A stretch of 64,000 nt of DNA from Anaerococcus urinomassiliensis (lineage in GTDB: Bacteria > Bacillota > Clostridia > Tissierellales > Peptoniphilaceae). Made by a program: the position numbers and the translations under genes. How positions within the stretch are numbered: the first letter of the stretch is position 1; each line of letters opens with the position of its first letter. Below are positions 17,163-26,680 of the stretch, one piece after another. Under the pieces are notes generated by a model that saw only the letters and a program-made list of their open reading frames with translations, was not told the DNA's origin and made no database searches. The stretch is from positions 464 to 64,463 of the forward strand of contig NZ_LT635782.1 of the NCBI RefSeq assembly GCF_900128425.1, in the 5' to 3' direction.

Positions 17163-18014
17163 ATGAAAAATTTAGGAAAATTAACTTTAGGATTGGCCCT
17201 AATTTTAGGACTTAGCTCATGTGGATCAAATGGAGATAACAAAGAAGCAAGCGAAGGAGAAAAAGCTCAAACAGAAGTTTCCGATACTATAAAAATTGGT
17301 GTTGTAGGTGAGAAAAATGAAGTGTGGGAAGAAGTTATCAAAAGATATGAACAAGGCACAGGCAAAAAGGCTGAACTTGTAAAGTTTTCTGACTATACCC
17401 AACCAAATGAAGCCTTGGCTAGTGGTGATATAGATGTAAATAGCTTCCAACACTACAAGTTCTTGGAAGAATATAACGATGCCCAAGGAGAAGAAAAACT
17501 TGTGGCAATTGCTGACACCATGCTTGCTCCATTAGGTTATTATTCAAATCAAATAAAAAGCTTAGATGAGCTAGAAGATGGAGATAAGGTTGCTATACCA
17601 AATGACCCATCAAATGGACCAAGAGCCCTATTCTTACTCCAAGCAGCAGGGCTTATCAAAGTAAATGGAAATCCTGGTGAAGCTATCACCCTAGATAATA
17701 TAACAGAAAATCCAAAAAATCTTGAATTTATTGAAATGGATGCAGCTCAAACTGCAAGAGCCTTAGATGATGTAAAAGTGGCTGCAGTTAATGACAACTA
17801 TGCCCTAGACTCTGGACTAAGTCCAAATGAAGATGCAATATTTTTAGAAGACCCAGAAAATCCAGATGCTAAGATCTATGTAAATGTTATAGCAGCAAGG
17901 GCAGAAGATAAGGACAATGAAGCCTACAAGGAACTTGTAAAATACTATCAGACAGACGAAACAAAGAAAGACTACGACACATATACAAATGGTGCTTGGA
18001 TAGCATCTTGGTAA
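17163..18014 (+). CDS. metQ: methionine-binding lipoprotein MetQ, copy 1
   Basis: 283 residues of the NlpA family. The signal peptide ends with lipobox LSSC near residue 20, then a short charged linker and the binding domain (IKIGVVGEKNEVWEEV, GDIDVNSFQHYKFLEEY, ALDDVKVAAVNDNYALDSG). Captures methionine for MetNI at the outer membrane face of the cytoplasmic membrane. AAGGAGG precedes the ATG. A second metQ follows 21 bases later. Confidence 0.92.
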   Translation: MKNLGKLTLGLALILGLSSCGSNGDNKEASEGEKAQTEVSDTIKIGVVGEKNEVWEEVIKRYEQGTGKKAELVKFSDYTQPNEALASGDIDVNSFQHYKFLEEYNDAQGEEKLVAIADTMLAPLGYYSNQIKSLDELEDGDKVAIPNDPSNGPRALFLLQAAGLIKVNGNPGEAITLDNITENPKNLEFIEMDAAQTARALDDVKVAAVNDNYALDSGLSPNEDAIFLEDPENPDAKIYVNVIAARAEDKDNEAYKELVKYYQTDETKKDYDTYTNGAWIASW

Positions 18015-18035
18015 GAAATTATAAGGAGAATGGTA

Positions 18036-18923
18036 ATGAAAAACATCAGTAAAATAGGCCTAGGCCTTGCCTTAATCTTAGGACTTAGTGCTTGTGGGGC
18101 AAAAAATAACGAAAGCGCACAAACAGCAGAGCCAGAAAAGACAGAAACAACAACAGAAGCTAAAAATGAAACAGATCCATTAAAAGATAAAGATGTGATA
18201 AAACTTGGTGTGGTCGGAGAAAATAACGAAGCTTGGGAAGATGTAGCAAAAAGATACAAAGAAGGCACAGGAAAAACTATAGAAATAGTCACATTTAGCG
18301 AATATAGAGAGCCAAACGAAGCTCTTTTATCTGGTGACATTGACATAAATGCTTTCCAACACAAAAAATTCCTCCAAGACTTTAACGAAGTTAGTGGATC
18401 AGATATAGTTTCAATTGCAGATACATCAATTGCTCCACTTGGTATATACTCATCAAAAATAAAGGACCTAGCTGACCTAGAAGATGGTGCAAGAATAGCA
18501 ATACCTGATGACCCAACAAATGGATCAAGATCACTATTCCTCTTACAATCAGCAGGACTTATAGAAGTAGAAGGCGAAGATGGAGATTCCATTACTCTTA
18601 ATGAAATCACATCAAATCCAAGAAACTTTGAAATAGTAGAGCTATCAGCTTCCCAAACAGCTAGATCTCTAGATGATGTGGACATAGCTTGTGTTAACTC
18701 TGGAATGGCAGTAGATGCTGGCTTCATACCAACAGAAGATGCAATTTACCTAGAAGACCACAATGAACCAGGTAAAGATATTTATGTAAATATCATAGCA
18801 ACAACACAAGATAAAAAGGATAGCCCAACCCTAAAGGACTTGATTGACAATTACTATCACACGGATGAAACCAAGAAAATAGTGGATGAAACAACAAAGG
18901 GATCATCAATCCCAGTTTGGTAA
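18036..18923 (+). CDS. metQ: methionine-binding lipoprotein MetQ, copy 2
   Basis: 295 residues, clearly a tandem paralogue of the upstream metQ (VIKLGVVGENNEAWEDV, GDIDINAFQHKKFLQDF, SLDDVDIACVNSGMAVDAG). Lipobox LSAC-G near residue 20. The ATG at 18036 has AAGGAG seven bases upstream; the in-frame ATG at 18030 is too close to it. The residues around the ligand differ from copy 1 (NSGMAVDAG versus NDNYALDSG), so the two may bind different forms, such as D- or L-methionine or a dipeptide; that is inference. Confidence 0.91.
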   Translation: MKNISKIGLGLALILGLSACGAKNNESAQTAEPEKTETTTEAKNETDPLKDKDVIKLGVVGENNEAWEDVAKRYKEGTGKTIEIVTFSEYREPNEALLSGDIDINAFQHKKFLQDFNEVSGSDIVSIADTSIAPLGIYSSKIKDLADLEDGARIAIPDDPTNGSRSLFLLQSAGLIEVEGEDGDSITLNEITSNPRNFEIVELSASQTARSLDDVDIACVNSGMAVDAGFIPTEDAIYLEDHNEPGKDIYVNIIATTQDKKDSPTLKDLIDNYYHTDETKKIVDETTKGSSIPVW

Positions 18924-19997: not shown

Positions 19998-20194
19998 AGA
20001 ATATCAACGTTATAGAGAACAGTAACTTATCAATAACTTTAAGAGAGGCGCTGGCTGGTGAAAAGCGCTAAGGGAAGGATAAGTGAATATCATCTTTTAG
20101 TTTGCAAAGTGAAATTATTAGCCTTGTACGAAAGCCAATCGTTAAGAGCAAAACTATCAATAAGTGGACCGTCTGTATGGACGGTTCTTTTTTT
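19998..20194 (+). promoter_or_regulatory. T-box leader, specifier ATC (isoleucine)
   Basis: The leader has AGTA on the 5' strand and, on the 3' strand of stem I, GTGAAT followed by ATC (20089-20091) and a purine. The T-box core AAGTGGACCG is at 20162-20171, merged with the terminator ACCGTC/GACGGT plus T run at 20166-20194. Uncharged tRNA-Ile is expected to prevent termination and raise ileS expression. It gives the register used here to read the other two T-boxes. Confidence 0.88.
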
Positions 20195-20209
20195 ATGAAG
20201 GAGGTAAAA

Positions 20210-23200
20210 ATGAGTGAATTCAAATCTCTAAATACAAACGATACAAAAAATCGTGAAGCGAGTATAGAAGAATATTGGAAAGAAATAGACCTATTAGATC
20301 AAACTTTTAAAACACGTGAGGATGCAGAAGAATACATAATCTATGATGGGCCACCAACAGCAAACGGCAAGCCTGGTATCCACCACGTTATAGCAAGAAC
20401 CCTAAAGGATATGACTAGCCGCTACAAGAATATGAAAGGCTACAAGGTCCTTAAAAAAGCAGGCTGGGATACCCACGGACTGCCAGTAGAAATCGAAGTT
20501 GAGAAAAAACTAGGATTCCACGACAAAAACGACATCGAAGGCTATGGTATAGAAAAGTTCAACAAGTTTTGTAAAGAATCAGTATGGACCTATTCTGATA
20601 TGTGGCGTGATATGTCTGACCGTATGGGATTTCTATATGATATGGATCATCCTTATGTAACCATGGACAACGACTATATAGAAACAGAGTGGTATCTATT
20701 AGATAAGGCCTTCAAAAATGGCTACATTTACGAAGGGGCAAAAGTTATGCCATACTGTCCAAGATGTGGTACAGGTCTTGCAAGTCATGAGGTAGCCCAA
20801 GGTTATCAAATGGATAAAACCATCACCCTTACAGTCAAATTTAAGAAGAAAGATACAGAAAACGAATATTTCCTAGCTTGGACAACAACACCATGGACAC
20901 TTCCATCTAACGTTGCCCTATCAGTAAATCCAGACCTTGACTATGTAAAAGTTTTCGATAAAACTGACAATGCTTATTATTATATGGCAAAATCCTTATC
21001 TGAAAGTCTAATGACTGACCATGAATACGAAGTGGTAGAAACTCTCAAGGGTTCTGATATGGAATATATGAAATATGACCAGCTACTTCCATATGTAGAT
21101 GTCAATGAAGAAAAGGCCTTTATAGTAACCCTTGCAGACTATGTATCTGCAGAAGATGGTACAGGTATAGTTCACTCTGCACCAGCCTTTGGTGAGGACG
21201 ACTATCAAATTGGTAGAAAATATGGCCTAGATTTCGTTCAACCAGTTGATAAAGAAGGTAAGTTTACAGATACTCCTTGGAAGGGTCAATTCATCTTTGA
21301 TACCAATGAAGATATCTGGCACCATCTTGTAAATGAAGGCAAGGTCTTCAAAAAACAAACCGTAGAACATAATTATCCACACTGCTGGAGATGCCACACA
21401 CCACTAGTTTATTATGCAACACCATCTTGGTATATAGAGATGAGCAAGTTTTCTGACAAATTAGTTGAAAACAACAAGTCTGTAAATTGGTATCCACCAA
21501 CTATAGGTGAAAAGCGCTTTGGAAACTGGATAGAAAATGTAAAAGACTGGGCTATATCAAGGAGCCGTTATTGGGGTACACCTCTAAATATCTGGCGCTG
21601 TGATGATTGTGGCCACACAAGGACAATAGGATCTAGAAAAGAACTGGCAGAACTTGCCATAGAAGATATAGATGAGAATATAGAACTTCATAGACCATAT
21701 GTAGACGAAGTTTCTATCAAGTGTGACCACTGCCATGGAACTATGCACCGTGTGCCAGATGTAATAGACGTTTGGTTTGACTCAGGAGCGATGCCATTTG
21801 CCCAATTACACTACCCATTCGAAAATAAGGAACTATTTGAAAATTATTATCCAGCAGACTTTATATGTGAGGGTATAGACCAAACTCGTGGATGGTTCTA
21901 CTCACTTATGGCTATATCAACCATTACAACAGGCAAGGCGCCATACAAAAATGTATTGGTAAATGACCTAGTAGTTGACAAAAACGGCCAAAAAATGTCT
22001 AAGTCAAAGGGCAATACCCTAGACCCATTTGCTCTATTTGACAAGTACGGGGCAGATGCAGTGAGATTCTATTCCCTATATGTATCACCACCATGGATGC
22101 AAACAAAATTTGATGAAGCTGGTTTGGTTGAAGTAAGAAACAACTTCTTCAGAACCTACGAAAATGTCTACAACTTCTTTAGCCTATATGCAAATACAGA
22201 CAATCTTGGTATAGAAGAGCTTAAAAATATTGGGGAAGTAAAATTAGAAAAAATTGACAAATGGTTATACTCAAGACTAAACACACTAGTAAAAGAGTAC
22301 ACTGAGCAAATGGAAGTCTTTGATTACAACAAGGTTGTTCACTTGATTTCAGACTTCGTAGTAGAAGACTTGTCAAATTGGTACATCCGCCGCAATAGAA
22401 AGAGATTTTGGATGAGTGAACTTACAGATTCCAAAAAGGCAGTTTATAAAACAACTTATGATGCCCTAATAACTATTGCAAAACTAATTGCGCCAATCAC
22501 TCCTCATATAGCAGAAGAAGTTTATAGAAATCTAACGGATGAAAAGACAGTTCACACCCAAATCATGCCAGAAGCAAATAGTGATTTCATAGATGAGAGC
22601 CTAGAGGCTGATATGGACTTAGTAAGAAAAATTGTAAATCTTGGCCGTGCAAGTCGTGAGAAAGAATCTATCAAAGTTCGTCAACCACTAGCAAAAATCA
22701 TAGTAGACGGTTCTTACCAAGAAAGGATTACTGACTTAATCCCTCTAATCAAAGAAGAGCTAAATATAAAAGAAGTAGAATTTGCAAATGATCTCTCCGA
22801 ATTTATGGACTTCTCACTTAAGCCAGACTTTAGAGTAGTTGGCCGTATTTTCCAATCAAAGGTAAATGATTTTGCAAAATATTTGGCAAGTGTAGATGCC
22901 AAGGACTTTGTAAACCAAACTAACGAGGGACCTGTTGAGATTGATCTTGACGGCGAAAAATACCAAGTCACAAGCGACTACCTAGATGTAAGAATCTCTG
23001 CCAAAGAAGGTTTTGATGTGGAAATGAACGGCAATGTCTTTGTAGTTCTAGACACTGAAATCACAGAAGATCTCAAAGACGAAGGTTATGCTCGTGAATT
23101 TATTTCAAAAATTCAAAACTTGAGAAAAGATTCTGGATTTGAAGTGACTGATAGGATAAATATCTCTTATGGGGCAGATGAAGATTTAAGCAAATCATTA

Positions 23201-23323
23201 GAAAAATTTGCCGATGAAATCAAGAAAGAAACTCTAGCAGATAGCCTAAAAAAAGAAGACTTATCAGCAGAGGAAATAGACCTAAATGATAAGAAGATTA
23301 AAATCGAAATAGAAAAATTATAA
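20210..23323 (+). CDS. ileS: isoleucyl-tRNA synthetase, type 2
   Basis: 1037 residues; charges tRNA-Ile. Signature 2 is intact (GQKMSKSKGN). Signature 1, normally HXGH, reads G56-I57-H58-H59, the swapped GXHH form described in a subset of IleRS2 enzymes. The editing domain has TTTPWTLPSN. A CPRCG motif occurs near the start of the editing region, while the C-terminal zinc finger of type-1 enzymes is absent and an extended acidic tail takes its place, as in IleRS2. The start at 20210 follows AAGGAGG; an upstream in-frame ATG at 20102 lies inside the T-box leader and is rejected. Confidence 0.96.
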   Translation: MSEFKSLNTNDTKNREASIEEYWKEIDLLDQTFKTREDAEEYIIYDGPPTANGKPGIHHVIARTLKDMTSRYKNMKGYKVLKKAGWDTHGLPVEIEVEKKLGFHDKNDIEGYGIEKFNKFCKESVWTYSDMWRDMSDRMGFLYDMDHPYVTMDNDYIETEWYLLDKAFKNGYIYEGAKVMPYCPRCGTGLASHEVAQGYQMDKTITLTVKFKKKDTENEYFLAWTTTPWTLPSNVALSVNPDLDYVKVFDKTDNAYYYMAKSLSESLMTDHEYEVVETLKGSDMEYMKYDQLLPYVDVNEEKAFIVTLADYVSAEDGTGIVHSAPAFGEDDYQIGRKYGLDFVQPVDKEGKFTDTPWKGQFIFDTNEDIWHHLVNEGKVFKKQTVEHNYPHCWRCHTPLVYYATPSWYIEMSKFSDKLVENNKSVNWYPPTIGEKRFGNWIENVKDWAISRSRYWGTPLNIWRCDDCGHTRTIGSRKELAELAIEDIDENIELHRPYVDEVSIKCDHCHGTMHRVPDVIDVWFDSGAMPFAQLHYPFENKELFENYYPADFICEGIDQTRGWFYSLMAISTITTGKAPYKNVLVNDLVVDKNGQKMSKSKGNTLDPFALFDKYGADAVRFYSLYVSPPWMQTKFDEAGLVEVRNNFFRTYENVYNFFSLYANTDNLGIEELKNIGEVKLEKIDKWLYSRLNTLVKEYTEQMEVFDYNKVVHLISDFVVEDLSNWYIRRNRKRFWMSELTDSKKAVYKTTYDALITIAKLIAPITPHIAEEVYRNLTDEKTVHTQIMPEANSDFIDESLEADMDLVRKIVNLGRASREKESIKVRQPLAKIIVDGSYQERITDLIPLIKEELNIKEVEFANDLSEFMDFSLKPDFRVVGRIFQSKVNDFAKYLASVDAKDFVNQTNEGPVEIDLDGEKYQVTSDYLDVRISAKEGFDVEMNGNVFVVLDTEITEDLKDEGYAREFISKIQNLRKDSGFEVTDRINISYGADEDLSKSLEKFADEIKKETLADSLKKEDLSAEEIDLNDKKIKIEIEKL

Positions 23324-23330
23324 GAATTAT

Positions 23331-23370
23331 GACTGATGAAAATAGCTTTATTTTTATCAGTCTTTTTTTG
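23331..23370 (+). terminator. Rho-independent terminator of ileS
   Basis: GACTGAT/ATCAGTC stem with an AT-rich loop and a seven-base T run. Confidence 0.82.
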
Positions 23371-23426: not shown

Positions 23427-23455
23427 TTGACAAAACGTTTTCTTCGGTTTATACT
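23427..23455 (+). promoter_or_regulatory. strong promoter with palindromic operator-like spacer
   Basis: TTGACA at 23427-23432, 17-base spacer, TATACT at 23450-23455. The spacer holds the perfect palindrome AAAACGTTTT (23432-23441), placed where a bound repressor would block RNA polymerase. It resembles the core of a CcpA cre site, but the regulator is unknown. Confidence 0.75.
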
Positions 23456-23491: not shown

Positions 23492-25417
23492 ATGCTATTT
23501 AGAACAACTGATGAGCATGAAGCTTTACGTAAAAAAGTTAGAGCTTTTGCTGAAGAAAAAGTAAAACCAATCGCCTTTGATCTAGATCAAAACAACGAAT
23601 TTCCTGATGATATTGTAAAAGAAATGGGTGAACTAGGATTTATGGGAATCCCATATCCAAAAGAATACGGCGGCCAAGGCCTTGATGCAATTTCTTATGC
23701 TATTACAGTAGAAGAATTATCAAGAGTTGACGGTGGTGTTGGTGTAATTTGTTCTGCACATACTTCACTAGGTACCTGGCCAATATTTGCCTTTGGTACA
23801 GAAGAACAAAAGAAAAAATACTTAGTTCCACTTGCTAAAGGAGAAAAACTAGGTGGATTTGGTCTTACAGAAGAAAACGCAGGTTCAGATGCGGGTGGTA
23901 CAGAAACTACAGCAGAACTTGATGGAGATCATTACATATTAAACGGCAAAAAAATCTTTATAACAAATGCTCCAAAAGCTGACACATATGTTGTATTTGC
24001 AGTAACAACACCAGGTATTGGAACCCATGGTATTTCAGCTTTCATCGTAGAAAAAGAATTTGAAGGATTTACCTTCTCTGATCACTATGACAAACTAGGT
24101 ATCAGATCTTCATCTACAGCAGAGCTTCACTTTGACAATGTAAAAGTTCCAAAAGAAAACTTACTTGGCAAAGAAGGTCAAGGATTTAAGATTGCCATGG
24201 CAACTCTTGACGGTGGTAGAATTGGTATAGCATCTCAAGCTCTAGGTATTGGTCAAGGTGCTTATGAATCAGCTCTAGCATACGCAAAAGAACGTGAACA
24301 ATTTGGTATGCCTATAGCTCACCTACAAAGAAACACCTTTAAACTTGCAGATATGGCAACATACCTACACGGTGCAAGACTTATGATCTATCATGCAGCA
24401 GACCTTAAGACTCACCACGAAAGATATTCTGCCGAAGCCGCTATGGCTAAACAAGTTGCAAGTGACCTTGCAATGCAAATAACAACAGAAGCTATCCAAC
24501 TTTACGGTGGCTCAGGATTTATCAAAGGTGTTGATGTTGAAAGATTCTTCAGAGATGCCAAAATCACACAAATCTATGAAGGTACTAACGAAATCATGAG
24601 AGTAGTAGTTGGTGCAAATACGGTTGGTCGTCCTCCCAGAGTTAAAGCAGTTGGCGGAAAATCTAAACAAGGTCCAATCGCAGGAGTTAGAAAGGGCGAA
24701 ATCTTTGAGGGAGATCCTAAAGAAGCGGTTAAGAATCTAGTAGCAGCTCTTAAAAAAGACGGATATGACTTCACAATTGGTATCGATCCTTGGACACCAG
24801 TAACAGAAGCTGAAAGAATAGTAGTAGCTGGTCGTGGTATTGGCGAAAAAGAAAATATGAAGCTAATAGAAGACCTAGCTTACCAAGCAGGTGCAGCTAT
24901 ATCATCATCAAGACCAGTAGCAGAAACACTAAAATACGTTCCACTAGATAGATACGTTGGTATGAGTGGACAAAACTTCAAAAACAACCTTTACATCGGC
25001 GTAGGAGTATCAGGTGCTGGCCAACACTTAAAAGGTATCCGTGATGCATCTACAATAGTTGCAATCAACAACAGCAAAAACGCTCCAATCTTTGCAAACG
25101 CTGACTACGGTATAGTAGGAGACTTCAAAGAAGTACTACCACTACTAATAGCAGAACTTGACAATGGTGAAGAAAAGAAACCAGCTCCACCAATGAAGAA
25201 AGTAAAAAGAAGCAAACCACGCAAGATGGCTCCAAAAGAAGATGTATATGTGGACTTAGGTTCAGGTTATGAATATGACCCTGAAGTTGGAGATCCAACA
25301 CAAGGCGTAGAGCCAGGAACACCATTTGATAAATTGCCAGATAGCTGGGTATCACCAGTATCAGGTGAAGCTAAAGAAGAATTTATTAAAGTTGAATTCC
25401 CAGAAGATAGAAAGTAG
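23492..25417 (+). CDS. acyl-CoA dehydrogenase / ETF-alpha FAD domain / cysteine-free rubredoxin fusion
   Basis: 641 residues in three parts. Residues 1-380 are a short-chain acyl-CoA dehydrogenase ([16 protein letters not shown]; catalytic base E363 in IYEGTNEI). Residues about 445-560 are the FAD domain of ETF alpha subunit, with [22 protein letters not shown] and [14 protein letters not shown] all kept, but without ETF-alpha domain I and with no ETF-beta gene nearby. After a lysine-rich linker, residues about 584-635 align with rubredoxin ([21 protein letters not shown]). Its four iron cysteines are replaced by D588, S591, S621 and S624, so it cannot hold the iron. Upstream of a flavodiiron protein gene by 6 bases; oxidises acyl-CoA and presumably passes electrons on. 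Confidence 0.93.
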
Positions 25418-25423
25418 GTAAAT

Positions 25424-26680
25424 ATGTATACAGTTAGAAAAGTAACAGAAGATTTATACTATGTAGGTGGGGATGATAGAAGACTTGCCCTATTTGAGAA
25501 TATATTCCCAATTCCTGAAGGTGTATCATATAACTCTTACCTACTAATGGATGAAAAAACAGTTTTAGTAGATGCAGTAGACTGGGCAATCACACGTGAA
25601 TATATCATAAATGTAAGCCGTGTTCTTGATGGACGTGACCTAGATTATATGATTATCAACCACATGGAACCAGACCACTGTTCATCAATCGAATTGATGC
25701 TAGAAAGATATCCAAACCTTAAAATCATTTCCTCAGAAAAAGGGGTAATGTTCATGAGACAATTTGGTTATCACGTAGATGATAGATACATCGAAGTAAA
25801 AGAAGGCGATACCATGAACTTTGGTAAACATACCCTAGCTTTCGTAGAAGCACCAATGGTTCACTGGCCAGAAGTTCTAATGACCTATGATACAACAAAT
25901 GGCGTATTATTCTCAGCAGATGCCTTCGGATCATTTATAGCAAACAATGGTAGACTTTTTGCAGACGAAGTTGATTGGGATCGTGATTACCTAGACGAAG
26001 CAAGACGTTATTATACAAATATCGTAGGAAAATACGGTACCTTTGTACAAAAAGCTTTGGAAAAAGCAGGAACATTAGACATCAAATACATCTGTCCACT
26101 ACACGGATTGGTATGGAGAGATAACTTTGGTTACATCCTTGACAAATACACCCACTGGGCAACATATGAACCAGAAAACGAAGGTGTACTAATAGTATAT
26201 GCATCAATGTATGGCAACACAGAATACGCTGCTCAAGCACTAGCAAGCAAACTTTGTGAAGCAGGCATAACAAATATTAGCTTAAGAGATGTATCAAGCA
26301 CACACGTATCAACTCTTATAGCAGAAGCATTTAAATATACTAACATAGTTTTAGCATCTGTAACCTATAACCTTGGAGTATATCCTCCAATGCAAAACTT
26401 CATAGAAGATATGAAGGCTCTAAACGTACAAAATAGAGCAGTTTCTATCATAGGAAACGGATCTTGGGCACCACAAGCTGCAGAAAAAATGGAAAAATAC
26501 CTAGATGAAGAAATGAGATTGATGGACGTTCTACCAGAACAACTAGAAATCGTAAGTTCACTAAAACGTATGAAAGAACCAGATATGGATGCCATAGTTG
26601 AAGGAATCCAAGAATCTATGAAAAAACGTAGAGAAGAAAAAGAAAAATCTGCTTCTCAAAACAAAGGCAAGAAAAAATAA
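25424..26680 (+). CDS. flavodiiron protein (A-type flavoprotein, oxygen/NO reductase)
   Basis: 418 residues. The N-terminal metallo-beta-lactamase-like domain has a full diiron site: H80, E82, D84, H85, H147, D166 and H227. The C-terminal flavodoxin domain (about 250-395) binds FMN (YASMYGNTEYAAQAL). A lysine-rich tail ends the protein. These cytosolic enzymes reduce O2 to water or NO to N2O and normally take electrons from rubredoxin. It lies 6 bases after the fusion gene, so the two form an operon. No rubredoxin with intact cysteines is encoded in the window. A terminator follows. Confidence 0.95.
   Translation: MYTVRKVTEDLYYVGGDDRRLALFENIFPIPEGVSYNSYLLMDEKTVLVDAVDWAITREYIINVSRVLDGRDLDYMIINHMEPDHCSSIELMLERYPNLKIISSEKGVMFMRQFGYHVDDRYIEVKEGDTMNFGKHTLAFVEAPMVHWPEVLMTYDTTNGVLFSADAFGSFIANNGRLFADEVDWDRDYLDEARRYYTNIVGKYGTFVQKALEKAGTLDIKYICPLHGLVWRDNFGYILDKYTHWATYEPENEGVLIVYASMYGNTEYAAQALASKLCEAGITNISLRDVSSTHVSTLIAEAFKYTNIVLASVTYNLGVYPPMQNFIEDMKALNVQNRAVSIIGNGSWAPQAAEKMEKYLDEEMRLMDVLPEQLEIVSSLKRMKEPDMDAIVEGIQESMKKRREEKEKSASQNKGKKK

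Follow-up and report, generated by a model that had tools for sequence, protein, structure and literature searches.

A rubredoxin-fold domain without its iron ligands in the BCR-FDP system of Anaerococcus

The BCR-FDP locus

The window (the whole stretch of 64,000 nucleotides that was analysed) contains an open reading frame (ORF) for a fusion of an acyl-CoA dehydrogenase, an ETF-alpha FAD domain and a rubredoxin-fold domain, referred to here as BCR, followed by the gene of a flavodiiron protein (FDP). No internal stops were found in the ORF at 23492-25417. The features of the locus are given below.

23331..23362, + strand: terminator-like hairpin following the preceding ORF (consensus match only; 14 pairs and a T tail)
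23427..23455, + strand: promoter-like site TTGACA-17-TATACT upstream of BCR (11 of 12 consensus matches)
23492..25417, + strand: BCR, acyl-CoA dehydrogenase / ETF-alpha FAD domain / rubredoxin-fold fusion (ORF of 641 aa)
23507..24616, + strand: acyl-CoA dehydrogenase part of BCR, residues 6-375 (Pfam)
24800..25159, + strand: ETF-alpha domain II (FAD domain) of BCR, residues 437-556 (PF00766; alignments to solved ETF-alpha)
24824..24826, + strand: V445 codon of BCR (Ser in 75/76 relatives outside the genus)
24998..25009, + strand: codons 503-506 of BCR, with G503 and V506 (Ala503 in 76/76 and Ile506 in 73/76 relatives)
25244..25387, + strand: iron-ligand-free rubredoxin-fold domain of BCR, residues 585-632
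25253..25264, + strand: first former CxxC of BCR, D588-L-G-S591
25352..25363, + strand: second former CxxC of BCR, S621-P-V-S624
25424..26680, + strand: simple two-domain FDP (beta-lactamase-like and flavodoxin), 418 aa
26688..26715, + strand: terminator-like hairpin after FDP (11 pairs; consensus match only)

Pfam places three acyl-CoA dehydrogenase domains within residues 6-375, and the full-length model of BCR resembles butyryl-CoA dehydrogenases, with 5ol2_C as the top structure. The ETF part is matched by ETF_alpha (PF00766) over residues 437-517 with 84.5 bits and by 14 solved ETF-alpha sequences. ETF domain I (PF01012) gave no Pfam match in BCR, in agreement with the original prediction that this domain is missing, an absence that is normal for BCR-FDP fusions. 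The Rubredoxin profile (PF00301) matches residues 592-631 (E 2.7e-13; 50.2 bits, with the cut-off at 23) and begins past the first CxxC. Together with the fold match described below, this E-value rules out a chance likeness to rubredoxin. The CxxC...CxxC iron ligands of rubredoxin are absent from BCR, and the translated ORF confirms the predicted replacements D588, S591, S621 and S624.

The FDP gene starts six bases past the BCR stop codon and encodes a protein with all seven diiron ligands and no rubredoxin domain. The upstream ORF (20102-23323) looks by eye like an isoleucyl-tRNA synthetase. The promoter-like site and the flanking terminator-like hairpins suggest that BCR and FDP form a two-gene unit, a reading drawn from consensus matches in scans that gave 12 promoter sites against 11.7 in shuffles, i.e. 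no excess, and 6 terminator-like hairpins against 2.0. Further upstream, at 17163-18923, lie two similar tandem lipoprotein-like ORFs that by eye resemble methionine-uptake binding proteins.

FDP follows BCR directly in 105/105 loci, and the diiron ligands H80, E82, D84, H85, H147, D166 and H227 are conserved in all 105 FDPs. In the two genomes of the genus that lack BCR, the sole FDP is a distant one (47-48% identity), while the close FDP (79-100% identity), present in the other 29, is absent from both. BCR and its FDP are thus missing from the same two genomes, which indicates that they go together. With this adjacency and co-absence, and with the biochemistry described for the Fusobacterium pair in PMC12288474, the flavodiiron neighbour is very likely the functional partner that had been proposed.

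Some individual FDP loci deviate from this picture. One BCR-adjacent FDP (G013:C6:166945-167889 / L008) matches residues 1-315 only, in an unusually long open frame, and probably has either a frameshift or a different C-terminus. Additional FDP-like stretches with several stop codons (G005:C1:21837-23033 and G017:C1:878076-878930) are probably remnants.

Loss of the iron ligands and selection on the domain

A full-length BCR was found in 29/31 Anaerococcus genomes. Comparison of homologues at the four ligand positions bore out the predicted replacement, with Asp588-Ser591-Ser621-Ser624 (D/S/S/S) in 29/29 and four cysteines (Cys4) in 0/29, whereas the four cysteines are kept in all 76 BCRs of other genera, 58 belonging to the same family and 18 coming from a class sample in which 20 were found outside the family. 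This distribution points to a genus-level loss, and the presence of the same residues in 29 species rules out a sequencing or assembly error. Another position of the domain, Trp619, is replaced by Tyr in 17 of the 76 outside BCRs.

The same four residues occur in 67/67 close protein clusters that reach the rubredoxin domain (P0002-P0068; cluster P0069 ends before it and was not counted), and also in Anaerococcus octavius, A. porci, A. hydrogenalis, A. lactolyticus, A. ihuae and A. provencensis, the named relatives by which the genus is assigned. In a wider set, whose organisms overlap those of the 76, D/S/S/S is found in 73/73 sequences at ≥86% identity and Cys4 in 116/116 sequences that have a rubredoxin domain and lie outside the genus, among them those of Fusobacterium, Brachyspira, Roseburia and Clostridium; 17 further sequences lack the rubredoxin domain or are incomplete. 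No parallel loss of the four cysteines was found outside the genus among these overlapping sets of 76 and 116 sequences. Four cysteines are present in both of the nearest outsiders (L066 at 80% identity and L067 at 75%), and the Anaerococcus BCRs form a single clade with full support. On these sequences, the simplest history would be a loss of the ligands on the Anaerococcus stem.

The rubredoxin domain (residues 585-632) has a pooled Nei-Gojobori dN/dS in the genus of 0.101 (95% CI 0.053-0.170; 217 pairs with dS 0.05-1), compared with 0.126 (0.074-0.198; 155 pairs) for the same domain in Cys4 relatives; the ETF domain of the genus has a value of 0.110. Extending the domain to residues 585-641 gives 0.112 in the genus and 0.131 in the Cys4 relatives. 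In the genus 33 of the 48 domain positions are invariant, against 12 of 48 in the Cys4 set, which is more diverse. Purifying selection acts on the iron-free domain as it does on the iron-bearing ones, and the earlier proposal of selection on shape over decay is upheld by its low dN/dS.

The replaced positions themselves carry a signature of constraint. Ser621 is encoded by TCN in 19 species and by AGY in 10, and Ser591 by AGY in one. At least one switch of the Ser621 codon falls inside a clade with support 100 that contains both AGC and TCA; at least one more is required elsewhere, where some connecting nodes have support of only 57-63 and a separate loss of Cys621 may have occurred instead. 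According to PMC6872785, a switch between TCN and AGY serine codons needs two base changes, so that the retention of serine through such switches seems to reflect selection on serine itself. In each former CxxC of the genus, one middle residue has turned hydrophobic: Leu589 is found in 27/29 genus BCRs against Asn, Pro or Gln in 62/76 others, and Val623 in 29/29 against Glu or Lys in 47/76.

Structure prediction is consistent with a preserved fold. From an input of 21 Cys-less sequences only, AlphaFold2 generated a best model of the isolated domain with a pLDDT of 83.9 and a pTM of 0.62, while three of the five models were poor (61, 52 and 49). Foldseek matched the predicted domain to rubredoxins, the best being that of D. 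gigas (1rdg) with a TM-score of 0.93 (by target length) at 1.1 Å and 52% sequence identity to the BCR domain. The full-length model has a pLDDT of 81.0 and a pTM of 0.59, with blocks of residues 581-630 at 74-84. By these predictions, the rubredoxin fold is retained in the iron-free domain. In a sequence comparison with solved chains, PFRD-XC4 (1qcv), a laboratory design and reportedly the variant described in Strop and Mayo 1999, ranked fourth; its second, third and fourth ligand positions are Thr, Ala and Thr, and the first falls outside the alignment. The title of that 1999 paper, as cited in PMC3945938, is 'Rubredoxin Variant Folds without Iron'. The existence of such a solved, Cys-replaced rubredoxin makes an iron-free rubredoxin fold physically reasonable.

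Changes in the flavin domain and rubredoxin-less relatives

Genus-fixed changes were defined as positions with one residue in ≥90% of the genus and another in ≥80% of the 76 other BCRs, the genus residue being present in ≤5% of the latter. Nine BCR positions pass these thresholds: E23K, T397A, S445V, A503G, I506V and the four ligands. K23 is shared by L066 and L067 and A397 by one of the two, which leaves seven positions found in neither of these nearest outsiders, namely the four ligands and V445, G503 and V506 of the ETF flavin domain. In FDP, five positions pass the same thresholds, of which four recur in one or both of the nearest Cys4 outsiders. An FDP interface signature matching the ligand loss was thus not found among these genus-fixed changes.

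The motifs at positions 445, 503 and 506 read Ser, Ala and Ile in five alignments to solved ETF-alpha, two of which are to the human protein. By count, we take the three positions to be Ser220, Ala277 and Ile280 of human ETF-alpha. Across 149 sequences, Gly503 occurs in none of the 96 proteins with Cys4 and in 47 of the 53 that lack a rubredoxin iron site, counts that are not independent because 29 of the 47 are genus BCRs from a single clade. Gly503 is missing in the other 6 iron-less proteins, and no change of this kind is seen in two rubredoxin-less family proteins and one Anaerovorax protein; conversely, among the 96 Cys4 proteins, 2 have a residue other than Ser at position 445 and 3 have Val at position 506. 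Parsimony assigns six Gly503 changes to a FastTree tree with weak support at its deep nodes. Changes on a single branch have their history in common, which does not by itself make one the cause of another.

A paralogue of BCR's two flavin parts that ends before the rubredoxin domain is present in 14 genomes of the genus, including the one studied here (62-67% identical); G016 carries a broken copy. In the own genome it lies at L062:3947-7091 (C10:307446-310590), head-to-head with a second FDP. Such a second FDP gene is divergent from the paralogue in 13/14 cases, with none found in the stretch fetched for L150. Gly503 is found in 12/14 paralogues, and residue 445 is not Ser in 13/14. The paralogues do not group with the genus BCRs on the trees, which leaves their descent from them unsupported. 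With a dead domain in BCR and an absent one in the paralogues, iron-less flavin donors stand beside FDPs in two ways in this genus.

Other fusions of this kind were also observed. The fusion at L063:5056-9035, again without rubredoxin (51% identical), has no FDP in the stretch fetched and is flanked by acetyl-CoA hydrolase/transferase-like and 3-hydroxyacyl-CoA dehydrogenase genes, a setting in which the acyl-CoA dehydrogenase/ETF-alpha fusion may serve other chains too. More distant fusions (~40% identical) are divergent from an FDP at L158:2130-5169 and L159:2147-5193. In the family genome G064, a rubredoxin-less copy (L076:1740-5705) stands in tandem before a full BCR and FDP and groups with the adjoining BCR on the tree; judged from this placement, domain loss after duplication is possible.

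A stand-alone rubredoxin gene was found in all 31 genomes of the genus, which rules out that the genus is devoid of rubredoxins, and the four cysteines are present in 30/30 loci read. Five genomes (loci L042, L047, L048, L050 and L056) have two stand-alone rubredoxin genes close together.

Electron path and comparison with known systems

These observations lead us to a reading that we hold to be somewhat better than even: the protein is the BCR subunit of a butyryl-CoA:O2 oxidoreductase of the BCR-FDP type, its rubredoxin domain has been turned into an iron-free docking or structural module, and electrons bypass the rubredoxin iron. On the Anaerococcus stem, the domain would have been converted from an iron relay into this iron-free module, presumably retained since its fold is needed for assembly with FDP or for docking onto it. 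Electrons would pass from butyryl-CoA to the FAD of the dehydrogenase and then to the FAD of the mobile ETF-alpha domain, from which they may reach the FMN of FDP directly, skipping the FeCys4 step. The FMN would in turn supply the diiron site, where reduction of O2 presumably continues. Docking and direct transfer, both put forward in the original prediction, would have indirect support in the ETF flavin-domain changes that go with the ligand loss and in the rubredoxin-less paralogues next to an FDP. As to the substrate, the own genome carries a separate acyl-CoA dehydrogenase beside an EtfB-like gene (L064; Pfam for these two), with further ETF-like, crotonase-like and 3-hydroxyacyl-CoA dehydrogenase-like genes recognised by eye; from this gene group, butyryl-CoA should be available.

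A more detailed version, which we regard as possible and advance tentatively, holds that the domain is a natural iron-free rubredoxin serving as a docking module, that the ETF flavin passes its electrons directly to FMN, that the flavin domain was adjusted (S445V/A503G/I506V) as the iron step was given up, and that the arrangement is seemingly shared with the rubredoxin-less proteins of the genus.

Electrons might instead be carried from the ETF flavin to FDP by a stand-alone rubredoxin in trans, with the dead domain kept only for assembly. Free rubredoxins are the usual donors of simple FDPs, and an intact one is encoded throughout the genus. However, a rubredoxin match, fused or not, is present in 117/130 family genomes, including genomes where BCR is Cys4, and most of the best matches listed are short frames of their own; the presence of rubredoxins therefore does not track the ligand loss. 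The rubredoxin gene of the own genome moreover stands alone between opposite-strand genes, far from BCR, and the ETF flavin-domain changes would be left unexplained, so that we consider transfer in trans unlikely.

It appears less probable still that FeCys4 never lay on the main electron path, the domain being an assembly element everywhere and Anaerococcus having dropped a dispensable cofactor. The rubredoxin-less fusions that stand beside FDPs fit such a history, and according to a paper on a C. difficile FDP it is unknown whether class F FDPs need their Rd centre (passage in PMC6033852). Against it, the retention of Cys4 in 76/76 and 116/116 relatives (overlapping sets) speaks for strong selection for the iron site elsewhere.

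Decay, whether as drift of the domain or as a change of the whole BCR-FDP unit to another job, would agree with the loss of every metal ligand in a relaxed phase on the stem branch and with the 2/31 genomes that lack both BCR and its FDP. Drift is already contradicted by the dN/dS of 0.10, the 33/48 invariant positions and the serine retained through codon switches, and the FDP ligands are intact in 105/105; we thus give decay very little weight. Least credible is that oxygen atoms bind a harder metal, be it Fe3+, Zn, Ca or Mg, in a structural or redox role: at each of the four positions an invariant residue could offer oxygen in 29/29 species, and a rubredoxin with a single Cys-to-Ser replacement has a solved structure (C42S, 1be7, among the matches), such variants still binding iron, but three serine hydroxyls are poor ligands, the Cys-less variant 1qcv stands in the PDB, and the paper title cited in PMC3945938 speaks of folding without iron.

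Returning to the bypass of the rubredoxin iron, its wider interest is that rubredoxin domains recur in flavodiiron electron chains. A domain that is strongly selected while its iron ligands are gone amounts to an experiment of nature separating the relay job from the scaffold job, and suggests that the iron step can be bypassed and that the rubredoxin domain is now a structural or docking part. It also points to oxygen removal paid for by butyryl-CoA in human-associated anaerobes (habitat: PMC9160270). Passages of the same paper name both Anaerococcus and rubredoxin, but the rubredoxin there is that of methanogens. No report of a natural rubredoxin domain with all four cysteines lost, or of the Anaerococcus BCR, was found among the matches listed in searches of open-licence papers.

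The closest known system is the BCR-FDP of Fusobacterium nucleatum, the butyryl-CoA oxygen oxidoreductase (BOOR) of Bystrom and Wolthers 2024, as presented in PMC12288474, a system marked by an alpha4beta4 complex and butyryl-CoA:O2 activity; a 2026 preprint describes this pair for Roseburia and further Clostridia of the gut (passage in PMC13404960). The fusion with its FDP partner highlighted in the original prediction is thus real, though it belongs to an already known system. That prediction had also suggested an assay of O2 or NO reduction with the partner; an NO reductase role is less likely for the Anaerococcus pair since the Fusobacterium complex is described in PMC12288474 as reducing O2 and not NO. 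BOOR and the Anaerococcus BCR share the three-domain order and the adjacent two-domain FDP, and BCR aligns over its full length with Cys4 members. The Fusobacterium homologues (L175 and L212; ~69% identity) keep the four cysteines and S445/A503/I506, whereas the genus has D/S/S/S and V/G/V. Hence the domain order and the adjacent FDP with intact ligands are those of BCR-FDP while the FeCys4 site is lacking, which makes the Anaerococcus BCR a variant of this system. The rubredoxin-less paralogues have the same two flavin domains as BCR and no rubredoxin domain at all. Compared with rubredoxin itself (PF00301; D. gigas 1rdg), profile and predicted fold are alike and the iron ligands are gone in BCR. 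The domain is a natural counterpart to the laboratory iron-free rubredoxin, and in contrast to PFRD-XC4 its D/S/S/S set was fixed by evolution, within a multidomain enzyme. Taken together, neither the fusion nor the lack of ETF domain I nor the neighbouring FDP is unusual for BCR-FDP, but the absence of the iron ligands is; what is new here is the fixed loss of these ligands within a known BCR-FDP system.
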